Positions 13,898 through 24,910 of a DNA stretch of 64,000 bases are shown here, piece after piece. Position 1 is the stretch's first letter; every line of letters starts with the position of its first letter. The stretch is from Pseudorhizobium endolithicum (GTDB lineage: Bacteria > Pseudomonadota > Alphaproteobacteria > Rhizobiales > Rhizobiaceae): assembly GCF_902153245.2 (NCBI RefSeq), contig NZ_CABFWF030000012.1, positions 126,501-190,500 on the forward strand. The letters run 5' to 3'. The notes under the pieces were generated by a model, which saw only the letters and a program-made list of their open reading frames with translations, searched no databases and was not told the origin of the DNA. The position numbers and the translations under genes are program-made.

Positions 13898-14069
13898 TCC
13901 TCAGTCCTCCAGCCGGGCGTGCAGCTACGGTCCGGTCACGGACTGCTGCACTCCTCTCCTGGCTCAACTGTATCTTCCCTGCCGATGACGTCCAGCCCAC
14001 TTCGGGCCGGAGCGTCCCGAACGGGGGCACGCATCCGTCCGGCGGCGCATCGACGTCGGGGGAAGCTCT

Positions 14070-14183
14070 CTAGCCGCCGAGCCAGAACTTGATGATCAAG
14101 CCCAGGACACCCACGGCTAGGACGCCTGCCAGCCATAGTCCGACAAACCAGAATATCCGGCGCAAGGTGCCCGGCTCGGCCAT
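14070..14183 (-). CDS. DUF2474 microprotein of CIO-type bd oxidase
   Basis: Small open frame of 37 residues, beginning MAEPGTLRRIFWFVG and ending LIIKFWLGG, with one hydrophobic segment (residues 11-32). It fits the DUF2474 family, which sits directly after cydB in cyanide-insensitive bd oxidase operons and plays the part CydX plays in E. coli. Its ATG overlaps the cydB TGA by one base (TGATG), so it is translationally coupled to cydB. It is short enough to be missed by automated gene callers. Confidence 0.85.
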   Translation of the reverse strand: MAEPGTLRRIFWFVGLWLAGVLAVGVLGLIIKFWLGG

Positions 14184-15187
14184 CAGTGATATCCTTCTTC
14201 CGGATCCACCTTGCCGCGGAACACCCAATAGGCATAGCCGGTGTAAGCGAGGATCAGCGGGACGAGAATCAGGGCGCCGACGAGAAGGAAGGCGAGGCTT
14301 TCATCCGGCGCTGCGGCGTCCCAAATCGTGACCGAGGTGGGGACGATATAGGGATAGAAGCTGATGCCGATGCCCGCATAGCCGAGCACGAAGAGCCCGA
14401 GCGAGGCGAGAAAGGGCCGGCTGTCGTGCTGGGTCCGCAGGCCGTTGACCAACGCAAGGAAACAGCCGGCTACCAGCACCGGGACGATGATGCTGAAGGC
14501 GGCCGTCGGCCAGCCGAACCAGCGCTGCAGATAGGTCGGCTCCAGGAACGGCGTCCAGAGGCTGACGACGCCCATGGCAACCAGTGTCCCGAGCGCCGCG
14601 CTGTAGGCGTACCGCCTGGCCCGTTCGGCAAGTTCTCCGGTGGTTTTCATGACGAGCCAGGTTGCGCCCAGCAGGGCGTAGCCCACCAGGATGGCTAGCC
14701 CCGTGGCAAGGGAAAAGGGAGTGAGCCAGTCCCACCATCCCCCGGCATAGGCCCGGTTCTCCACCGGAATGCCCTGAACCAGGGCGCCGAGCGCGACGCC
14801 CTGGGCGAAAGCTGCGACCATCGAGCCGCCGGCGAACGCCCAGTTCCAGAGATACTCGCCCCTCGTGGTGCGCCAGCGGTACTCGAAAGCGACCCCCCGG
14901 AAGATCAGGCCGAGCAGCATTGCGATGATCGGGGCGTAAAGCGCCGGCAGGATCGTTGCATAGGCCAGAGGGAAAACGGCCAGAAGCCCGCCGCCGCCCA
15001 GCACCAGCCACGTTTCGTTGCCGTCCCAGACGGGCGCGACGCTGTTCATCATCACGTCCTTCTCGCGCTTTTCTGAGAAGAAGGGGAACAGGATGCCGAC
15101 GCCGAGATCAAAGCCGTCCAGGATCACATAGGCGAGGACGGCGAAGGCGATGATCGCGGCCCAGATGAAAGCGAGATCAAGTTCCAT
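14183..15187 (-). CDS. cydB: Cytochrome bd ubiquinol oxidase subunit II
   Basis: Subunit II of the bd-type quinol oxidase, 334 residues and about eight to nine membrane segments. The family signature is near the N-terminus (YVILDGFDLGVGILFPF, then APVWDGNETWLVLGGG). The ATG at 15187 (MELDLAFIW) is preferred to 15196. It lies inside the last codons of cydA, an 11-base overlap that points to translational coupling. It is transcribed after cydA and before the DUF2474 microprotein. Confidence 0.95.
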   Translation of the reverse strand: MELDLAFIWAAIIAFAVLAYVILDGFDLGVGILFPFFSEKREKDVMMNSVAPVWDGNETWLVLGGGGLLAVFPLAYATILPALYAPIIAMLLGLIFRGVAFEYRWRTTRGEYLWNWAFAGGSMVAAFAQGVALGALVQGIPVENRAYAGGWWDWLTPFSLATGLAILVGYALLGATWLVMKTTGELAERARRYAYSAALGTLVAMGVVSLWTPFLEPTYLQRWFGWPTAAFSIIVPVLVAGCFLALVNGLRTQHDSRPFLASLGLFVLGYAGIGISFYPYIVPTSVTIWDAAAPDESLAFLLVGALILVPLILAYTGYAYWVFRGKVDPEEGYH

Positions 15188-16592
15188 GGCGGGCACCTTC
15201 GTGTTTGGTGGCCTGCGGGGCAGGGGTAATGCCGGCGGTCCTGATCGGGCCCTCGTCCAGATCTCCCATGGGATCGCGGGGCAGGCGTGACATGAGGCGA
15301 AGGAGGTAGAATGTCCCTGCGCCGAAGATCAGGAAATAGACGATGATGAATGCGACCAGCGACGCGCCGACGGCCGGTGCTGAGATGGGAGATACGGAAT
15401 CCGCCGTCAGCAGATGGCCGTAGATCGTGAAGGGCTGCCGCCCGACCTCCGTTGTGATCCATCCCGCAAGGACAGCCACGAAGCCGGCCGGGCCCATGAC
15501 GATCGCCACCCTATGCAACCACTCGTTCCGGTAAAGCGTGCCGCGCCAGCGGCAATAGAGGCTCCAGACCCCGAGACCCAGCATGGAGAAGCCGATCAGG
15601 ATCATGACGCGGAACGACCAGAAGACGATTGGGACCGGCGGGTGCAGTTCCTCCGGCACCGTGTCCAAGCCGGCCAACGGTGCGTTGCGATCGTGCTTCA
15701 GGATCAGGCTGGAAAGTTTCGGGATTTCGATCGCATAGTCGATCCGCTTCTCCTCGGGGTTCGGGAGCCCGAACAGGATGAGGGGCGCTCCATCGGAGTG
15801 GCTTTCGTAGTGCCCCTCCATGGCCATGACCTTCACCGGCTGGTGTTCGAGCGTGTTGAGACCGTGCATATCCCCGGCGACGATCTGGATCGGGGCCACC
15901 AATGTGAGCATCCACATCGCCATCGAGAACATCGTGCCGGCCCGCAGCGGAGAGGTGCGGCGGAGAAGATGCAAAGCGCCGACGGCTCCGACCACGAGGG
16001 CAGTGGTCAGGTAGGCGGCGAGGACCATGTGCACCAGCCGGTAGGGGAAGGAGGGATTGAAGATCACCGCCCACCAGTCCGCCGGCACGAACTGGCCAAC
16101 CTCGTTGATGGCGAAACCGGTGGGCGTCTGCATCCAGGAGTTCACCGCCAGGATCCATGTTGCGGACATCAGCGTGCCGAAAGCGACCATAAGGGTGGCG
16201 AAGAAATGCAGGCTTGGGCCGACGCGGTTTCGCCCGAACAGCATCACGCCCAGAAAGCCTGCTTCCAGGAAGAAGGCGGACAGCACCTCGTAGCCCATCA
16301 GCGGTCCGATCACCGGGCCGGCCTTGTCGGAGAACACGCTCCAGTTCGTTCCGAACTGATAGGACATGACGATGCCGGACACGACGCCCATGCCGAAGGT
16401 GACCGCAAAGATCGTCTTCCAGAAGTCGAACAATTCCAGATAGACGTCCTGCTTCGTTCGCAGCCATAGCGCTTCGAGAACCGCCAGATAGCTCGCCAGT
16501 CCGATCGAGAATGCGGGAAAGATGATGTGGAACGACACGGTGAAGGCAAACTGGAACCGGGCCAGAAGCGTGGCGTCGAAGTTCTCGAACAT
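15177..16592 (-). CDS. cydA: Cytochrome bd ubiquinol oxidase subunit I (CIO type)
   Basis: Heme-carrying subunit I, about 471 residues. It has FTVSFHIIFPAFSIGLASYL near the N-terminus, which carries the heme ligand histidine, then GYEVLSAFFLEAGFLG and AGWITTEVGRQPFTIYG. The length and short Q-loop place it with cyanide-insensitive oxidases (CioA) rather than E. coli CydA (522 residues). Together with CydB it oxidises quinol and reduces oxygen at low oxygen or under respiratory inhibition. The start at 16592 (MFENFDATLLARFQ) fits the family; 16601 is an alternative with GAGAGAGG adjacent. No FNR box of full consensus was seen upstream. Confidence 0.93.
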   Translation of the reverse strand: MFENFDATLLARFQFAFTVSFHIIFPAFSIGLASYLAVLEALWLRTKQDVYLELFDFWKTIFAVTFGMGVVSGIVMSYQFGTNWSVFSDKAGPVIGPLMGYEVLSAFFLEAGFLGVMLFGRNRVGPSLHFFATLMVAFGTLMSATWILAVNSWMQTPTGFAINEVGQFVPADWWAVIFNPSFPYRLVHMVLAAYLTTALVVGAVGALHLLRRTSPLRAGTMFSMAMWMLTLVAPIQIVAGDMHGLNTLEHQPVKVMAMEGHYESHSDGAPLILFGLPNPEEKRIDYAIEIPKLSSLILKHDRNAPLAGLDTVPEELHPPVPIVFWSFRVMILIGFSMLGLGVWSLYCRWRGTLYRNEWLHRVAIVMGPAGFVAVLAGWITTEVGRQPFTIYGHLLTADSVSPISAPAVGASLVAFIIVYFLIFGAGTFYLLRLMSRLPRDPMGDLDEGPIRTAGITPAPQATKHEGARHGT

Positions 16593-16700
16593 CGCGTCCA
16601 TTCCTCTCTCTTCTCGGGCGGTCGTAGAGACACGGAGGAAGATGGGTTAGGACGGACCAACGTCAATGAAGACAGATTGTCCCACTTAGAACCCCGATGC

Positions 16701-16728
16701 AAAAAAGAAGCGCCTCCTGAGGAGGCGC
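16701..16728 (-). terminator. Rho-independent terminator on the minus strand
   Basis: Perfect 8-bp G-C-rich stem (GCGCCTCC / GGAGGCGC, loop of three, 16710-16728), followed on the minus strand by TTCTTTTTT (16709-16701). It faces toward cydA but lies upstream of the cydA start, and no minus-strand gene ends here. It therefore most likely ends the predicted sRNA. Confidence 0.75.
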
Positions 16729-16785
16729 CGAGGTGGGGAGGGTACTTATGACGCTGTCGGCTGCCCTGACGAGGCATTCGACGAG
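16701..16785 (-). ncRNA. Candidate small RNA with anti-Shine-Dalgarno motif
   Basis: A minus-strand transcript is predicted from three aligned signals. There is an EcfG-type promoter at 16791-16815, then about 85 bases containing the C-rich string ACCCTCCCCACCTC (complement of 16730-16743), then a Rho-independent terminator at 16701-16728. No minus-strand open frame with a ribosome site lies in this interval. Stress-induced alphaproteobacterial sRNAs with CCUCCUCCC-like motifs (the alpha-r14 / cuckoo RNA group) share this plan. Membership in that group is inference. It would end 109 bases before the cydA start. Confidence 0.5.
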
Positions 16786-16790
16786 GCCTC

Positions 16791-16815
16791 AACCCGGCGG
16801 CTGTCGAATTGTTCC
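16791..16815 (-). promoter_or_regulatory. EcfG/RpoE2-type promoter, minus strand (sRNA)
   Basis: On the minus strand GGAAC (16815-16811) is followed after 18 bases by TT (16792-16791) in a GGTT context. It is divergent from the matching plus-strand site at 16842-16866. The predicted start is near 16785. Confidence 0.55.
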
Positions 16816-16841
16816 CGGTCGATCCTCCACATTTTTCCTGC

Positions 16842-16866
16842 GGAACAATCCTCGATAGCCCCGGTT
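16842..16866 (+). promoter_or_regulatory. EcfG/RpoE2-type promoter for the 16893 gene
   Basis: GGAAC at 16842-16846, 16-base spacer, GGTT at 16863-16866. The predicted start near 16873 leaves a 20-base leader carrying AGGAGG before the ATG at 16893. Confidence 0.65.
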
Positions 16867-16892
16867 CTGATCTGAAGAATCAGGAGGCAATC

Positions 16893-17162
16893 ATGAGCAA
16901 ATCGATCGAAACCACCGATCACCAGGAAATTCGGAACTGGATCGAAGAGCGAGGCGGACATCCCGCGCGGGTAAAGTCTTCCGGCGAGGGCGGTATCCTG
17001 CGGGTCGACTTCGGCGAGCCTGAGGAGGCGCTCGAGGAAATCGGGTGGGACGACTTCTTCGAGGTGTTCGACAAGAGCAAGCTCGCCTTCCTCTATCAGG
17101 AGGAAACGTCTGGCGGGAAAACCAGCCGCTTCAACAAGTTCGTCTCCCGCACCAAACATTGA
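16893..17162 (+). CDS. Conserved small acidic protein
   Basis: A protein of 89 residues with an ideal ribosome site (AGGAGG, seven bases before the ATG). Blocks such as HQEIRNWIEERGGHPARVK, GGILRVDFGEP and FNKFVSRTKH resemble a family of small alphaproteobacterial proteins. To my recollection these are often mislabelled 1,4-alpha-glucan branching enzyme in databases, with no enzyme domain present. No signal peptide or membrane segment is seen. An EcfG-type promoter just upstream suggests general-stress expression. It is first in a run of three small genes (16893-17652). Confidence 0.85.
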   Translation: MSKSIETTDHQEIRNWIEERGGHPARVKSSGEGGILRVDFGEPEEALEEIGWDDFFEVFDKSKLAFLYQEETSGGKTSRFNKFVSRTKH

Positions 17163-17184
17163 CGTTCAGCCGAAGGAGGCCCCA

Positions 17185-17391
17185 ATGCCCACGAGCAAGC
17201 ATCTCCGCCCAGATCGCCCATCAGATGCCGACTTGGAGTCGGATCCCGGCATAGGGCAGTCGAAAGGTACCTCGAGATATTCCGGAGAGGACGACGCTGT
17301 CGGAACAAACACCGAGGAAGGTGACGTGATGAACGACACGCTGCCCACCGGCGGCATCGATCCGAACCAGCGGGGCCGCACCAACAAGTAA
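17185..17391 (+). CDS. Small disordered hydrophilic protein
   Basis: A protein of 68 residues, rich in Asp, Gly, Ser and Thr, with no hydrophobic segment, ending GGIDPNQRGRTNK. The start is fixed by GAAGGAGG seven bases upstream. It follows the 16893 gene by 22 bases, so it is probably co-transcribed under the EcfG-type promoter. I do not recognise a function. The composition is that of the short disordered proteins common in rhizobial stress regulons. Confidence 0.72.
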   Translation: MPTSKHLRPDRPSDADLESDPGIGQSKGTSRYSGEDDAVGTNTEEGDVMNDTLPTGGIDPNQRGRTNK

Positions 17392-17409
17392 GAGGAAGCG
17401 AGGCAAGTC

Positions 17410-17652
17410 ATGCAAGGCAACAAGACCCACCAGCAGCAGCGCAATATCATCGAGAAGCGCGAGAACACCGCGAATGCCGACGAGAGCTTCGATGCACGCG
17501 CGGATCTGAATCGGAGCGAGGCCGCGCGCGAGGCCTTCCGGAAGGGAGACAACCTCAACATGCGCACGGCCGAACTTTCGATGACGGACGATCCGTCGAT
17601 CGTCCGCGGCGTCAACCAGGAAAGCGAGCACAACAAGGGCAGCGGCTCCTAG
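17410..17652 (+). CDS. Small hydrophilic protein
   Basis: A protein of 80 residues, highly charged (KTHQQQRNIIEKRENTAN, DARADLNRSEAAREAFRK), without signal or membrane segment; the middle is probably helical. GAGGAAG and GAGGCAAG lie just upstream of the ATG. It is third in the small-gene run from 16893 and ends 14 bases before the convergent EEP gene. Function is unknown. Confidence 0.7.
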   Translation: MQGNKTHQQQRNIIEKRENTANADESFDARADLNRSEAAREAFRKGDNLNMRTAELSMTDDPSIVRGVNQESEHNKGSGS

Positions 17653-17665
17653 GCGTGTGCGTCGG

Positions 17666-18430
17666 TCAGGCTCCCGGAATGCGTATGGTTGCGAGCAGGG
17701 GAAGGTGGTCGGATGCCCTTCGCGCGAGAGGGGTGGAGATTACCTCCGCATCCAGGACCTCGATATTGTCGGAAACGAAGATATGGTCCAGGCGCATCAG
17801 AGGATAGCGAGAGGGGAAGGTGGGGCGTAAGACTTTTCCCGTCGAGGACTGGACATCCTTCATATGTCGGGAAACCAGGCGGTATGCCGCCGATCGCCCG
17901 ATGGAGTTCAGATCGCCGAGCAAAATCAGCGGCTGACCGTCTCCCGCCGGGCCATCCAGCCAGGACGGTCCGAGCAGCGTCCTCATCTGGGTTACACGAT
18001 CCTGCCGGCGTAAGCCGAGATGGGTGTTGAATATCTGGATCGGCTTTCCTCCGATCGTGACTTCTGTCCAGAGCGCTCCCCTTTGCTCGCCCGATGACGG
18101 CAGCATTCCGGCCTTCACGAGCTTCATCGGCAACGACGTCAGGATTGCGTCGCCATATCGCTCCTCCGCCACATGAAGAGCCGCGTGAAAATGGAAATCC
18201 ATCTGCAGAAGCGACGCGATGACGTGCGCCTGGTCCGCGCCGCCCGTGCGCCGCCTCCCCACATCCAGTTCCTGCAGCCCGATGACATCGGGTGCCACGC
18301 TGGCGATGACCTCGGCCACCCGGCCGCAATTCAGCTGGCGGTCGGTGCCGATGCAACTGTGGACATTGTAGCTGAGAACCTTGAGGATCATTTCCTGCCG
18401 GGCGGGCGGTGGGTGCGCGATGTCTGACAT
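17666..18430 (-). CDS. Endonuclease/exonuclease/phosphatase family protein (YbhP-like)
   Basis: EEP-fold hydrolase of 254 residues, metal dependent. The visible motifs in order are LSYNVHSC, GLQELDVG, FNTHLG, LLGDLNS, RLDHIFVS and ASDHLPLLA, covering the catalytic Asn, Glu, His and Asp residues. There is no signal peptide. E. coli YbhP is encoded with ClsB and YbhN; homologues of all three lie here within 3.3 kb. The divergent promoter region has a face-to-face EcfG-type site whose minus-strand start would fall only a few bases before the ATG at 18430. The alternative ATG at 18391 (MILKVLSYNV) is therefore possible. Confidence 0.85.
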   Translation of the reverse strand: MSDIAHPPPARQEMILKVLSYNVHSCIGTDRQLNCGRVAEVIASVAPDVIGLQELDVGRRRTGGADQAHVIASLLQMDFHFHAALHVAEERYGDAILTSLPMKLVKAGMLPSSGEQRGALWTEVTIGGKPIQIFNTHLGLRRQDRVTQMRTLLGPSWLDGPAGDGQPLILLGDLNSIGRSAAYRLVSRHMKDVQSSTGKVLRPTFPSRYPLMRLDHIFVSDNIEVLDAEVISTPLARRASDHLPLLATIRIPGA

Positions 18431-18437
18431 GAGGCGG

Positions 18438-18464
18438 GGAACCCGTTTCGCTTGCTTTCGTTCC
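18438..18464. promoter_or_regulatory. Overlapping divergent EcfG/RpoE2-type promoters
   Basis: Plus strand: GGAAC at 18438-18442, 16 bases, CGTT at 18459-18462, directed at the YbhN-like gene. Minus strand: GGAAC at 18464-18460, 18 bases, TT at 18441-18440 (GGTT context), directed at the YbhP-like gene. Each -10 element overlaps the other promoter's -35, so use should be mutually exclusive on one molecule. Confidence 0.68.
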
Positions 18465-18492
18465 CTCGTTACCGTCGAGAGAAGGGGGGAAG

Positions 18493-19437
18493 ATGATCAC
18501 GTGGCGCCGGGTTTTCCAGTTGCTCATCGTCATTGCGATCGGTGTCGCCGTCCTGCTCGTCTATCGCAGCCTGGGCCGCTACTCGATCGAGGAGATCGAG
18601 GAGTCGGTCATGGCGATCGGCCGCCACAGACTCGGCTTCGCTTTCGCCTTCGTGATCGCTTCCTACATCTGCCTGACAGGCTTCGACTGGCTGGCCGTCC
18701 GCTATGCGGGAAAACCGCTTGCCTATCGCCGGACCGCGGTCGCGTCCTTCACGAGCCTTTCCATCGGCCATAATGTCGGAATGGCCGCCTTAAGCAGCGG
18801 TGCCGTCCGCTACCGCTTCTATTCGCGGTGGGGGTTGACGGGCGAACAGGTGGCGAAGGTCATCGTCTTTTGCGGCTTCACGGTCGGGCTCGGCCTTGTC
18901 ACCCTGGCCGGCGTGGCGCTGCTGGCATCCCGCGGCGAGGGAGGAAATCTCCTCGACTTGAGTGGTCCCATGACGCTCCTGCTGGGGGCGACATGCTGGC
19001 TGGTTCCACTAGGTTACGTGGTGATATGCTGGCACGTGAAGCGCCCGATCGTGCTGCATCGCTGGCGGTTCGATCCGCCTCCGCTACGTCTTGCGGTCGC
19101 GCAGATTATCATCGGTACGCTGAATTTCGCCTGCGTCGCCGGCTGCATCCATCAACTCATGCTGGCCCTGTCCGACGTGGACTACCTGACCGTGGCGACC
19201 GCCTATGTCACAGCCAACATCGCAGCCTTGATCAGTCATGTTCCCGGTGGTCTCGGGGTCCTGGAAGCGACGATCCTCGGGATCCTGCCGTCGAGCGCCT
19301 CGATCGGCGCGCTCGTCGTTTTCCGGGTGCTCTACTTCTTCGTTCCGCTTCTGGTAGGGGTGCCTACTCTGATTGCGAGCGAGGCCTATTTCCGTCGGCA
19401 ACCGCCGCCGGCCACTTCAGGACCGCCGGCGGGTTAG
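18493..19437 (+). CDS. YbhN/UPF0104-type membrane protein
   Basis: Integral membrane protein of 314 residues related to YbhN and the LPG-synthase transmembrane region, with about eight hydrophobic segments. It has the conserved blocks LSIGHNVGMAALSSGAVRYR and ALISHVPGGLGVLEATILG. The catalytic domain of MprF is absent, so it is not a lysyl-transferase. AAGGGGGGAAG precedes the ATG. Its 3' end overlaps the convergent PLD gene by 21 bases. The clustered ClsB- and YbhP-like genes suggest a role with phospholipids of the inner membrane, which is inference. Confidence 0.85.
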   Translation: MITWRRVFQLLIVIAIGVAVLLVYRSLGRYSIEEIEESVMAIGRHRLGFAFAFVIASYICLTGFDWLAVRYAGKPLAYRRTAVASFTSLSIGHNVGMAALSSGAVRYRFYSRWGLTGEQVAKVIVFCGFTVGLGLVTLAGVALLASRGEGGNLLDLSGPMTLLLGATCWLVPLGYVVICWHVKRPIVLHRWRFDPPPLRLAVAQIIIGTLNFACVAGCIHQLMLALSDVDYLTVATAYVTANIAALISHVPGGLGVLEATILGILPSSASIGALVVFRVLYFFVPLLVGVPTLIASEAYFRRQPPPATSGPPAG

Positions 19438-20925
19438 GCGAGAAAATGCCCGTTTTACGAAGACCAGCATGGGCCTGACCGGCCAGAAGGGCTGCTTCGG
19501 ATCGATGATGCCGGTGCCCAACAGGGACTCGGTATCGCCCGTCCGAGGATCGACGTCGAAGGGGCGAAGGCCTCGCATGGAGGTGTTCAGCCTCTCGATC
19601 GCTGCAATCATCGAGCCGGTCTGCGCAACCAGTGCGGATACGCTCTCCGGTGATGCATCCAGATGTTCGGCGAGCAGGTCGTCACGAACCAGCCGGATTG
19701 CCTCGCGGCCTTCCACCGAACGGGTCTCGATTGCCAGATCGCACTCGGTGTCCAATCCCTCGGAACGGTTGTTGAGGTTGGATGAGCCGACGCGCACGAA
19801 GCGGTCGTCCACGATGATCACCTTCGAGTGGACCACGATTTCCCTTTCTCCACCCTTGCCGTCGGGCGCAACGGCATAGAAGACCCTAAGCCGATCATAG
19901 CGATCCGCCCGCTTCAGACGACGGATCAGGCGGTTACGATTCCTCCCCATCATCAGTTGCTCAAGAAAGCCGTGCGACTCGCGCGTGACGATCACCACGA
20001 TCTCGGGGCCATTTCGTTCCTTGAGCCGCTTCGCCAGCGTTCTCGCGACGCCGAACGAGGCGAGATACTGCGTCTCGATATACAGGTGGCGCTCCGCAGA
20101 CCGCAGGGCGTCGTGGGTGAGACGGATCGCTTCCCGGTGGCCGCGGCGGCCTTTCCATTTCCAGGCTTCCGTCAGGGCGAGTGCCGTGTGGCAGTTCGTC
20201 AGGGCCGGAGGCAGGTCCTCGGGCCAGGGTGTCGGCCCCTCGATCCGTCGCTCCGGCGGAAGCGTCTCGCCCGTCAGCTTGCGCCAGCGGCGCCTTGCCA
20301 CATCGCCGACGAGAGCGGCCGCCGCCCCGGCGACGATGCTCTGGACGTCATGAACCGGGCCATAGGACGTCCCGTCGGTGGATTTCCGGAGCGGATTGTC
20401 CGGCCTGTGCGTCCGGTCGTCCCACCGTCTCGCCGTGAGATCGATGCCGCCGAGGAAGGCGGTCCGGTCGTCGATCACGACGAGCTTCTGGTGGTGACTT
20501 GCGCGGAGCGGGTGTTTGAAGTCGAACTTCAGCATAATCCGGGGGTGGTCGCTCCATTCCATCTTCCCGAATATCTTCAGGCTTTTTCCGGAATAGACGG
20601 GCCCCATGCCCCAGACCAGCAGACGGATGTGAAGGTCGGGCTGTGCTTCCACCAGCGCCCTTAGACGGTCGCCCATGGTTGGGCAATCGGGGTCTTCCGG
20701 CCTTAACCGGATCGTCGGATTGAAATCCCATCCGATGATGAAGATCGATCGCCGGGCTTGTCCCAGCACCTGGTCCAGCCGGCGGAAGTAATCGGCGCCG
20801 TCGATCAGAAAGGCCGCCTTCTCGGCACGGGCGCTACGCCAGGCGTTACGGCCGGGCTTTATGATCGGATTGACCTGGAAACTGTCTTCTGACGAATAAG
20901 CGGTCGTCGTCACGTCCACCTGCAC
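19417..20925 (-). CDS. Phospholipase D family protein (ClsB/YbhO-like)
   Basis: Protein of 502 residues with two HKD motifs. The first is HHQKLVVIDDRTAFLGGID at about residues 144-162. The second is HSKVIIVDDRFVRVGSSNLN, in the C-terminal half. Two HKD motifs without the N-terminal membrane segments of ClsA match ClsB-type cardiolipin synthases or phosphatidyltransferases. The start is a GTG at 20925, or more likely the GTG at 20919 by spacing from AAGGGG. A minus-strand EcfG-type promoter lies at 20950-20975. It forms a ybhPON-like trio with the two preceding genes. Confidence 0.87.
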   Translation of the reverse strand: MQVDVTTTAYSSEDSFQVNPIIKPGRNAWRSARAEKAAFLIDGADYFRRLDQVLGQARRSIFIIGWDFNPTIRLRPEDPDCPTMGDRLRALVEAQPDLHIRLLVWGMGPVYSGKSLKIFGKMEWSDHPRIMLKFDFKHPLRASHHQKLVVIDDRTAFLGGIDLTARRWDDRTHRPDNPLRKSTDGTSYGPVHDVQSIVAGAAAALVGDVARRRWRKLTGETLPPERRIEGPTPWPEDLPPALTNCHTALALTEAWKWKGRRGHREAIRLTHDALRSAERHLYIETQYLASFGVARTLAKRLKERNGPEIVVIVTRESHGFLEQLMMGRNRNRLIRRLKRADRYDRLRVFYAVAPDGKGGEREIVVHSKVIIVDDRFVRVGSSNLNNRSEGLDTECDLAIETRSVEGREAIRLVRDDLLAEHLDASPESVSALVAQTGSMIAAIERLNTSMRGLRPFDVDPRTGDTESLLGTGIIDPKQPFWPVRPMLVFVKRAFSRLTRRRS

Positions 20926-22735: not shown

Positions 22736-24910
22736 CTATTCGATTTCCAGGAGAAAAAAGGTCGTGGGGCCGTGAGGCGTCTCGTTGCTCATGTCCAGCC
22801 GGACAGGCCCGCTCCCGCGGTATAGTGGAGGGTGCACGACGCCATCCAGCCCCACGGGCGAAATCCTCCACCGGCCGGAGCGGCCAGCCAGGGCAAGCCT
22901 GACGCTCCCTGGACGGATGCGCACCGGCAACGTTCCGAAATCCTCGATCACCTTCTCTTCCGGGTCGCGGAAGCGCATCCTGGTACTGCGTGCATCGGTG
23001 GCGTAGACCAGCAGCATTCGCTTGCTGTCGAGCAGGGAAGGTGTCTGATCGATGGCAGAGAGGGCCAGCAGGCCGCTACCCTGGGCGCTCTCGACATGGA
23101 GGATGTCGAGAGCCGCCGGCGAGGGGAGGGACGAGAATGCGATCGCTTCGGTGCGGGGTGTGACGATCTTTAGGAGACTGTTTTCCGTATCCAGCTCAAG
23201 CTGGCCCGTGTCGCTCTCGAAGATGCCTTTGGCGAGGTCGGTGCGATTGGCCGCGGAAAGAAGACCGGCGGTCTTCAAGGCGGCGATCATGTCCCGCCCT
23301 TTCTCGGAACTGCGCGGCTGGTCCACGGCGTGGGGAGCCCGCAGGCCGTTGCCGCGGCGAAGGCCGATGGCGGAGACCAGCGCCAGCGAGGTCAGGTCGT
23401 CCGGCTCCCTCGCCTGCATGTCGCCGTCGAGGTCGTCCAGCCCACGCATTGCAAAGGGAATGGTGTTGGTGGCGGCGGAAACATCGCCTCGTCTGAAAAG
23501 AAGAGCGGCCAGCGTTTCTCCAGCCCGGGCGACCGGGTCAAGAGCAATGGCATAGGGCAACATGCCCCGCTTGTGTGGGAATGGTTCGCCGTATCGCAGC
23601 GCGATCGGCCCATGGCCGTGCCGGCAGAGGATGTCCCAGCCTTGGAGGGCTGCATAGGCGGGTATGACCAGCCCGCCTTCGTAGCGGTGACGGTTCCAGA
23701 ACACGTGGTCGTATTCGCTGATCGCGAACGGCTTGCCCAGCCACCGAGCTGCCGCGGCGGCCCGAAGGTAGGCGGCGGCCCCTGAAATTGCGCTATCATC
23801 CTTGATGGATGAGCCCGGCTCATACCCGTTGACACCGTCGTGGTAGGTGTTCATGGCGACCGCCTGGAGCTCCGATCGCGTCAGCGCTGTCTGGACGGTG
23901 GGCCAGTTGTTGTAGGAACTTATCAGCCCCTTGTAGCCAAGGCCGCGGAGGATGTCCGTCATTCTCCGCAGCAACGCCTGTTCGCTGTGGATGAAGTAGG
24001 CTTGGAGGTCACGCATGCGCGGCGTGTCGAGGTACCTGTCGCGCGGCAGCTCGATGCTCCCCGCCTCTAGCCGCTCCGAGGGCTGCAGGTCTCCCCAGGC
24101 TTCGCGCAACTCCGCGGTGGTTCTGTACTGCTGTTGAAGCCACGTGTTGAACGGCTGCTTCAGGCTGCTGGGATAGTGAGGCCGCCCCGGAATTTCATGA
24201 ACGACCGTCTCGAATTCCATGCCGCCCTCATTGGCCAGGATCAGCAGGCCGAGGGCTTCATCATGGATGGGTGCAGTGCCGGTATACGGGTTGACCCTGG
24301 TCAGCATCTCCGTGACAAGCTGGCGCCAGTGTTCGAATGCCCGGTCGTCGTAATGCATCTCCAGTTTCAACCCCGGCGCCGGACCCCACCGGTCGTCGAA
24401 GCCGCCGTGGCCTCCACGCCAAGAGGTCAAGCCGTCCACCATCCAGTAGATGCCGTTCCGCTTCAACGCAGCCATCAGATAGTGCACCCGATCCAACGTC
24501 TCCGGATCGAGGTCGAAGTCCCGGCGGCGGCCCATCATCAGACTGGCGTCGAGGAAATGAAAACGCGCGATGTTGTAGCCACGCATCGCTAGCTGACGTG
24601 CGTAGACATCCGCGGTGGCGTGATCGGGAAAACCGCCGGAAGCCGGGCTCCAGGCAAGCGATGCACAGTGAAAGACTTCTTTTCCTGTCGGCGAAGCCTG
24701 CCTCGCCAGATGACCGCCGTCACCGACAGTCAGCCGCGCCCCGGCGCCGTCGATCGGCCGGTTTCGCAAGAACCGAGAGAAGTCGAGCGGGCTTCCGGTT
24801 TGAATGGAGAGGTCGGTTTCGCGGACCGGGAGCCAATCATCCGAGGCGGTAGCGTGGTTCTGGCATGTGATGACCGTCAGCAGGCCCATCAGCCACAGCG
24901 TCTTCCGCAT
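22736..24910 (-). CDS. Secreted GH-A clan (GH5-like) glycoside hydrolase
   Basis: Protein of 724 residues with an N-terminal signal peptide (MRKTLWLMGLLTVITC, cleavage likely after residues 20-22). The fold looks like a TIM-barrel hydrolase of clan GH-A: Asn227-Glu228 in LILANEGG fits the acid/base strand, MNTYHDG the strand-6 motif, and Glu399 in FAISEYDHVFWN the nucleophile. A beta-rich domain follows from about residue 560. It is the last gene of the exopolysaccharide operon and may trim the polymer in the periplasm or outside. A strong GGAGG precedes the ATG, which lies 74 bases inside the upstream GT2 gene. The substrate is unknown. Confidence 0.68.
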   Translation of the reverse strand: MRKTLWLMGLLTVITCQNHATASDDWLPVRETDLSIQTGSPLDFSRFLRNRPIDGAGARLTVGDGGHLARQASPTGKEVFHCASLAWSPASGGFPDHATADVYARQLAMRGYNIARFHFLDASLMMGRRRDFDLDPETLDRVHYLMAALKRNGIYWMVDGLTSWRGGHGGFDDRWGPAPGLKLEMHYDDRAFEHWRQLVTEMLTRVNPYTGTAPIHDEALGLLILANEGGMEFETVVHEIPGRPHYPSSLKQPFNTWLQQQYRTTAELREAWGDLQPSERLEAGSIELPRDRYLDTPRMRDLQAYFIHSEQALLRRMTDILRGLGYKGLISSYNNWPTVQTALTRSELQAVAMNTYHDGVNGYEPGSSIKDDSAISGAAAYLRAAAAARWLGKPFAISEYDHVFWNRHRYEGGLVIPAYAALQGWDILCRHGHGPIALRYGEPFPHKRGMLPYAIALDPVARAGETLAALLFRRGDVSAATNTIPFAMRGLDDLDGDMQAREPDDLTSLALVSAIGLRRGNGLRAPHAVDQPRSSEKGRDMIAALKTAGLLSAANRTDLAKGIFESDTGQLELDTENSLLKIVTPRTEAIAFSSLPSPAALDILHVESAQGSGLLALSAIDQTPSLLDSKRMLLVYATDARSTRMRFRDPEEKVIEDFGTLPVRIRPGSVRLALAGRSGRWRISPVGLDGVVHPPLYRGSGPVRLDMSNETPHGPTTFFLLEIE

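Follow-up and report, generated by a model that had tools for sequence, protein, structure and literature searches.

Genes and features of the locus

In the window, i.e. the whole analysed stretch of 64,000 nucleotides from Pseudorhizobium endolithicum, the order along the minus strand is an exonuclease/phosphatase-fold gene, a small-protein operon on the opposite strand, a predicted small RNA (sRNA) and cydAB (Table 1). The two GGAAC-N18-TT strings reported in a preliminary description of this DNA (minus 16815-16791 and plus 16842-16866) are indeed arranged back to back, and both read GGAAC-N16-GGTT. The plus-strand copy lies 26 bases before the ATG of smallP1 (16893) and is present in all 19 sRNA loci that keep the smallP1 gene. 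SmallP1, smallP2 and smallP3 are all hydrophilic and have no Pfam or NCBIfam match. Of 40 relatives, 12 possess smallP1, and two of these 12 belong to other genera; in one genome (G015, locus L026) the smallP1 gene matches in two overlapping pieces, which suggests a frameshift.

The window sequence contains no minus-strand gene directly upstream of the sRNA terminator that would explain it, as had been noted before; the nearest upstream gene on this strand is the exonuclease/phosphatase-fold gene, which ends at 17666. Direct reading likewise bears out the C-rich motif ACCCTCCCCACCTC (minus 16743-16730) and the perfect 8-bp stem of the terminator, which is GC-rich and followed by TTCTTTTTT (minus 16728-16701). 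The terminator scan counts 9 pairs in this stem, including a G-T pair.

Table 1. Positions of the predicted sRNA, its elements and the neighbouring genes in the window
Feature	Position	Strand	Basis or remark
EcfG-type promoter of the sRNA, GGAAC-N16-GGTT	16791..16815	-	sequence GGAACAATTCGACAGCCGCCGGGTT; same promoter at 36/38 genus matches
Divergent EcfG-type promoter of the small-protein operon, GGAAC-N16-GGTT	16842..16866	+	sequence GGAACAATCCTCGATAGCCCCGGTT
Predicted sRNA, 82 nt	16701..16782	-	covariance model matches in 37/57 genomes; 5' end inferred
5' hairpin	16756..16782	-	fold of the 82-nt RNA; 5/8 stem pairs changed on both sides
Unpaired linker with GUCAU (16752-16748, anti-start) and CCUCCCC (16741-16735, anti-Shine-Dalgarno)	16730..16755	-	accessibility in 37 copies
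Intrinsic terminator	16701..16729	-	terminator scan; 4/10 stem pairs changed on both sides
cydA, downstream neighbour outside the sRNA	15177..16601	-	Pfam PF01654
smallP1, small acidic protein, 89 aa	16893..17162	+	beside the sRNA in 19/37 loci
smallP2, small protein, 68 aa	17185..17391	+	in part of the sRNA loci
smallP3, small protein, 80 aa	17410..17652	+	in part of the sRNA loci

The terminator by itself is not decisive, because the scan finds 7 terminator-like sites in 14000-20000 where 4.3 are expected. Promoter strings are weak evidence on their own as well, since GGAAC-N17-GTT occurs 176 times genome-wide versus 133 times for the reversed control. With both of these weak when taken alone, the case for an sRNA gene rests on conservation. 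The stretch 16699-16785 folds better than its shuffles (z -2.71), only one of 200 being as good.

The 5' end is placed at 16782 by applying the spacing of Sinorhizobium meliloti SmelB126, where the listed 5' end is 33 nt from the start of GGAAC. Position 16782 corresponds exactly to alignment column 9, which is G in 37 of 37 copies; columns 1-8 are variable in these copies and conservation begins at column 9. A minus-strand transcript of about 85 nt had been proposed. The sRNA itself is upheld by the model matches in the genus, but its predicted length is more likely 82 nt (16782-16701), in which case the transcript begins with its hairpin.

Conservation within the genus

The first DNA search matched 8 of 40 genomes, including that of P. 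endolithicum itself, all of a single genus. From the alignment of these 8 genomes a covariance model (R1) was built of the transcript only, with the promoter left out. Over 57 genomes of the genus, R1 yields 38 matches in 37 genomes at E <= 0.01. At 36 of the 38 matches the EcfG promoter ends between 4 nt before and 2 nt after model position 1, with 13 other sense-strand promoter matches in the 117,463 bases of the R1 loci. This is the promoter position expected of a sigma-EcfG-dependent sRNA, and the SmelB126 spacing agrees with it. Of the remaining two matches, L058 has a promoter with a one-base variant. L059, the second and weakest-scoring match, located in G012, lacks both a promoter and the syntenic genes. 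We set it aside as a false positive, which leaves 37 sRNA copies, one per genome.

In all 20 genomes without an R1 match, the neighbouring exonuclease-fold gene is still represented by a close relative. One of these genomes (G019) possesses a diverged sRNA copy with a promoter at the syntenic place (22.4 bits with a model R2), so the sRNA is carried by 38 of the 57 genomes. R1 and inspection of the syntenic place give no copy in the other 19; two of these (G067 and G044) retain the flanking genes and lack the RNA. A short non-coding RNA is thus very probably made from this locus and conserved across much of the genus, judging from the comparison of genomes.

The position upstream of cydA, given in the preliminary description, applies to the window and not to the genus at large: cydA follows codirectionally in 19 of the 37 copies and is absent from the 1.5 kb downstream in the other 18. 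This distribution bears on a reading of the RNA as an EcfG-driven 5' leader or attenuator of cydAB, in which the terminator would stop most transcripts and conditional read-through would feed cydAB. The codirectional cydA some 100 nt past the terminator, together with its presence after half of the copies, would suit such a leader. Against this, the 18 copies without cydA still keep promoter, fold and terminator, and the terminator is conserved with covariation. Because of these 18 copies a cydA leader does not suffice as an account of the RNA, and we reject this very unlikely reading on synteny.

Secondary structure and covariation

The fold was first predicted on an unfitted alignment of 8 rows, where 4 of 18 pairs are changed on both sides. 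In an alignment of 37 rows, fitted to the model and thereby favouring the structure, the fold forms in 95.4% of cells, and 9 of the 18 pairs, distributed over both stems (5' hairpin and terminator), are changed on both sides. Such double-sided changes occupy 44 cells, a number reached by none of 500 shuffles, which ignore relatedness. If the pairing partner is slid by 1-3 columns, pairing in the same alignment falls to 44-51%. Covariation, the absence of codon periodicity on the opposite strand (see below) and the independence from cydA together point to a stand-alone non-coding transcript with its own terminator.

The unpaired linker

The most conserved unpaired part of the sRNA is GUCAUAAGUACCCUCCCC. 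Its reverse complement, GGGGAGGGUACUUAUGAC, reads as a Shine-Dalgarno sequence followed, after a spacer of six bases, by AUG; the linker is thus exactly antisense to a ribosome-binding site with its start codon. Of the 37 copies, 32 have the CAU and five lack it, and the bases between CAU and the C-tract vary among lineages. Over the 37 copies the C-tract (columns 83-92) has a mean unpaired probability of 0.86 (lowest 0.12). The probability exceeds 0.8 in 26 copies, giving the accessible anti-Shine-Dalgarno sequence expected of trans-acting repressor sRNAs that function like AbcR or NfeR1, and is below 0.5 in three, whose models show the tract largely paired.

A sequence of this kind allows two readings, as antisense to initiation regions or as a coding start on the other strand. 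In the latter, GGGGAGGGTACTTATGAC would supply a small protein with its ribosome-binding site and start, and the plus strand does offer a good Shine-Dalgarno sequence and ATG at the conserved element, with similar ORFs of 17-19 aa in about half of the sRNA copies. Yet in the 16 copies with similar short ORFs the pairwise differences are spread evenly over the codon positions (384/378/386), in other copies either the frame is broken or the ATG is gone, and the EcfG promoter and the T-tract lie on the minus strand. An antisense small protein is hardly credible in view of these figures and is rejected on the codon-position statistics. The reading as antisense to initiation regions is the one followed below.

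Comparison with known small RNAs

In the window every Rfam family stays below its gathering score. The best permissive match is suhB/MmgR (RF00519), at 17 bits versus a gathering score of 41, and permissive Rfam searches of 20 of the 37 loci give only chance-like matches. RNAs of the CcaF1 type were compared through Rfam only. Among the papers listed in literature searches, no title or abstract describes this sRNA, supplementary tables being outside the scope of the search. The comparisons below draw on excerpts of the papers cited.

The alpha-r14 (NfeR1, cuckoo) RNAs resemble the sRNA in carrying an anti-Shine-Dalgarno motif in unpaired sequence (PMC10746234). They are built of three hairpins, and every hairpin presents CCUCCUCCC in unpaired sequence (PMC10746234), whereas the sRNA has one hairpin besides the terminator, and CCCUCCCC in its linker in place of three CCUCCUCCC. 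The promoter listed for NfeR1 is of the RpoD class (PMC7143759), that of the sRNA is EcfG-type. The identification with alpha-r14/cuckoo made from the sequence alone is consequently not supported, as the three CCUCCUCCC hairpins are absent and the Rfam covariance search in the window stays below the gathering score. MmgR/suhB (alpha-r8, RF00519), represented in the Rfam model as a 77-nt RNA with a hairpin, an unpaired CCUCCC and a terminator, is similar in build; it is activated by NtrC (PMC7143759), unlike the EcfG-type promoter here, and the score of 17 bits speaks against membership. AbcR1 and AbcR2 share anti-Shine-Dalgarno regulation, in their case of transport mRNAs (PMC10746234), but differ in promoter class (PMC7143759) and in the lack of an Rfam match in the window at their gathering score.

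GsrN of Caulobacter and the GsrN-like candidates of Rhizobiaceae agree with the sRNA in having an EcfG-type promoter, a short RNA and an exposed C-rich sequence (PMC5869019). The C-tract is in the 5' loop of GsrN and in the linker of the sRNA, as compared from the published description. Proximity to the ecfG/phyR locus was the criterion by which the Rhizobiaceae candidates had been selected (PMC5869019); the sRNA differs from them in lying about 94 kb away from the nepR/ecfG/phyR locus, on the same contig. GsrN of C. crescentus is itself distal to this locus, and in the excerpted text its authors' BLASTn matches are confined to Caulobacteraceae (PMC5869019).

In S. meliloti, sigma-E2 motifs precede 23 sRNAs (PMC3616915). 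The comparison with this species covers four loci of the RpoE2 class, the same promoter class as here (SmelB126, SmelA018, SmelA001 and SmelB008; PMC7143759), with chromosomal ones such as SmelC601 left out. The promoter string occurs upstream of the listed 5' end in one of the four (SmelB126), and model R2 finds no member among them, the best match being partial (9.2 bits, E 0.36). On the evidence of these comparisons the RNA represents a genuine sRNA family, new and unmatched in Rfam, of a kind already known, namely EcfG-dependent anti-Shine-Dalgarno sRNAs.

Distribution beyond the genus

Searches with R2 in the order (397 genomes) and in the family (394 genomes) find strong matches in the genus alone, with 11 candidates scored per genome among the matches listed. 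None of the weak matches (9 in the order, 6 in the family) is preceded by an EcfG promoter string. A combined pattern of promoter and core gives 12 matches over the 394 family genomes, six in the genus, five in another genus and one in a third, with none for the reversed control among the matches listed. Four of the five matches in the other genus turn out to be the beginning of a short coding gene, and the last match shows no matching terminator by eye. In named genome records the promoter-plus-core pattern gives 46 matches. Fifteen fall in records of Neorhizobium, Rhizobium or "Rhizobiales bacterium"; the remaining 31, dispersed among unrelated groups, are taken collectively as chance. Within the limited sensitivity of these searches there is nothing convincing beyond the genus. 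At four loci of another Rhizobiaceae genus (L121, L122, L124 and L125) an EcfG-like promoter string is located before a conserved protein of 75 aa, which by eye looks DNA-binding.

Proposed mechanism and candidate targets

Stress frees sigma-EcfG from NepR through PhyR. The P. endolithicum genome possesses a NepR gene, adjoined by genes for an EcfG-type ECF sigma factor (typed by position), PhyR and a HWE kinase. Between phyR and the HWE kinase gene lies a further EcfG-type promoter string (L164:5869-5893, contig C12, at about 238.9 kb), which may serve the kinase gene or a GsrN-like RNA.

Promoter, boundaries, fold and the unpaired anti-Shine-Dalgarno and anti-start linker of the sRNA are supported by comparison of its copies, as is the proposed arrangement of a terminator-ended sRNA divergent from an EcfG-driven small-protein operon; from these features we infer EcfG-dependent expression and repression by pairing. 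Upon release of sigma-EcfG from NepR via PhyR, EcfG-RNA polymerase would start at about 16782 and stop at the terminator at 16701, giving an RNA of about 82 nt with the hairpin first. Its exposed linker 5'-GUCAUAAGUACCCUCCCC-3' would then base-pair with target mRNAs at their Shine-Dalgarno sequence and start codon, repressing translation during stress. Translation start regions are the most likely partners, because the linker matches such a region exactly in reverse complement, and NfeR1 and similar anti-Shine-Dalgarno sRNAs exert repression by masking initiation regions, as stated in an excerpt of PMC10746234. We therefore consider the RNA a probable stand-alone, trans-acting sRNA of the general stress response, whose linker would pair with start regions and repress translation.

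Candidate targets were counted against the reversed pattern as a control. Linker-complementary sites are not enriched in the genome of P. endolithicum (12 at <= 3 mismatches, one of which is the sRNA locus itself, versus 13 in the control), nor over 17 genomes (10 non-self sites at <= 2 mismatches versus 11). The sites in the P. endolithicum genome include the starts of genes named by eye from their translations as an EamA-like transporter, two ABC solute-binding proteins, ScpA and a peroxidase-like protein. Neither search yields a conserved target: the sole gene with a recurrent non-self site, by eye that of an ABC sugar-binding protein (3 of 17 genomes), is accessory and present in 4 of the 57 genomes (L196, L198, L200 and L208). 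Its start reads GGGAGG-spacer-AUGAC and is nearly complementary to the linker. In G049, the fourth genome with this gene, the RNA has a shorter Shine-Dalgarno-to-AUG spacing, and the spacing of the ABC sugar-binding gene is shorter too, a suggestive coincidence in a single case.

Among the 42 window genes with ATG starts (mean linker duplex energy -14.4 kcal/mol), the lowest energy (-33.4 kcal/mol) belongs to the gene at 22736-24910 on the minus strand, a candidate target for which conservation gives no support; smallP1 (-12.9) and cydA (-14.2) do not stand out. The protein encoded at 22736-24910 (724 aa) has no Pfam or NCBIfam match and appears glycosidase-like by eye.

The lack of enrichment in the genomes searched would agree with an EcfG-dependent sRNA acting mainly as an activator by leader pairing, or as a sponge of RNA or protein. 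The former has a precedent in sigT-dependent GsrN, which activates katG by leader pairing through an exposed C-rich loop, according to an excerpt of PMC5869019. The complementarity of the linker to Shine-Dalgarno sequence and AUG at natural spacing, however, suits the covering of a start site better than the opening of a leader, and we hold an activator or sponge to be unlikely. Repression at start sites thus stays the preferred reading. It may tentatively, and with considerable doubt, be taken further: the RNA could be an antisense image of the whole initiation region, its linker covering both Shine-Dalgarno sequence and start codon with a lineage-specific spacing that tracks the targets, and hence a stress-induced, genus-specific start blocker, perhaps chiefly of sugar-uptake proteins.

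GsrN is the only EcfG-dependent sRNA in the literature consulted with a worked-out function. The present family is conserved and well delimited, with base-level predictions for its promoter, 5' end, fold and interaction element, and would make gene silencing in the general stress response of rhizobia testable.
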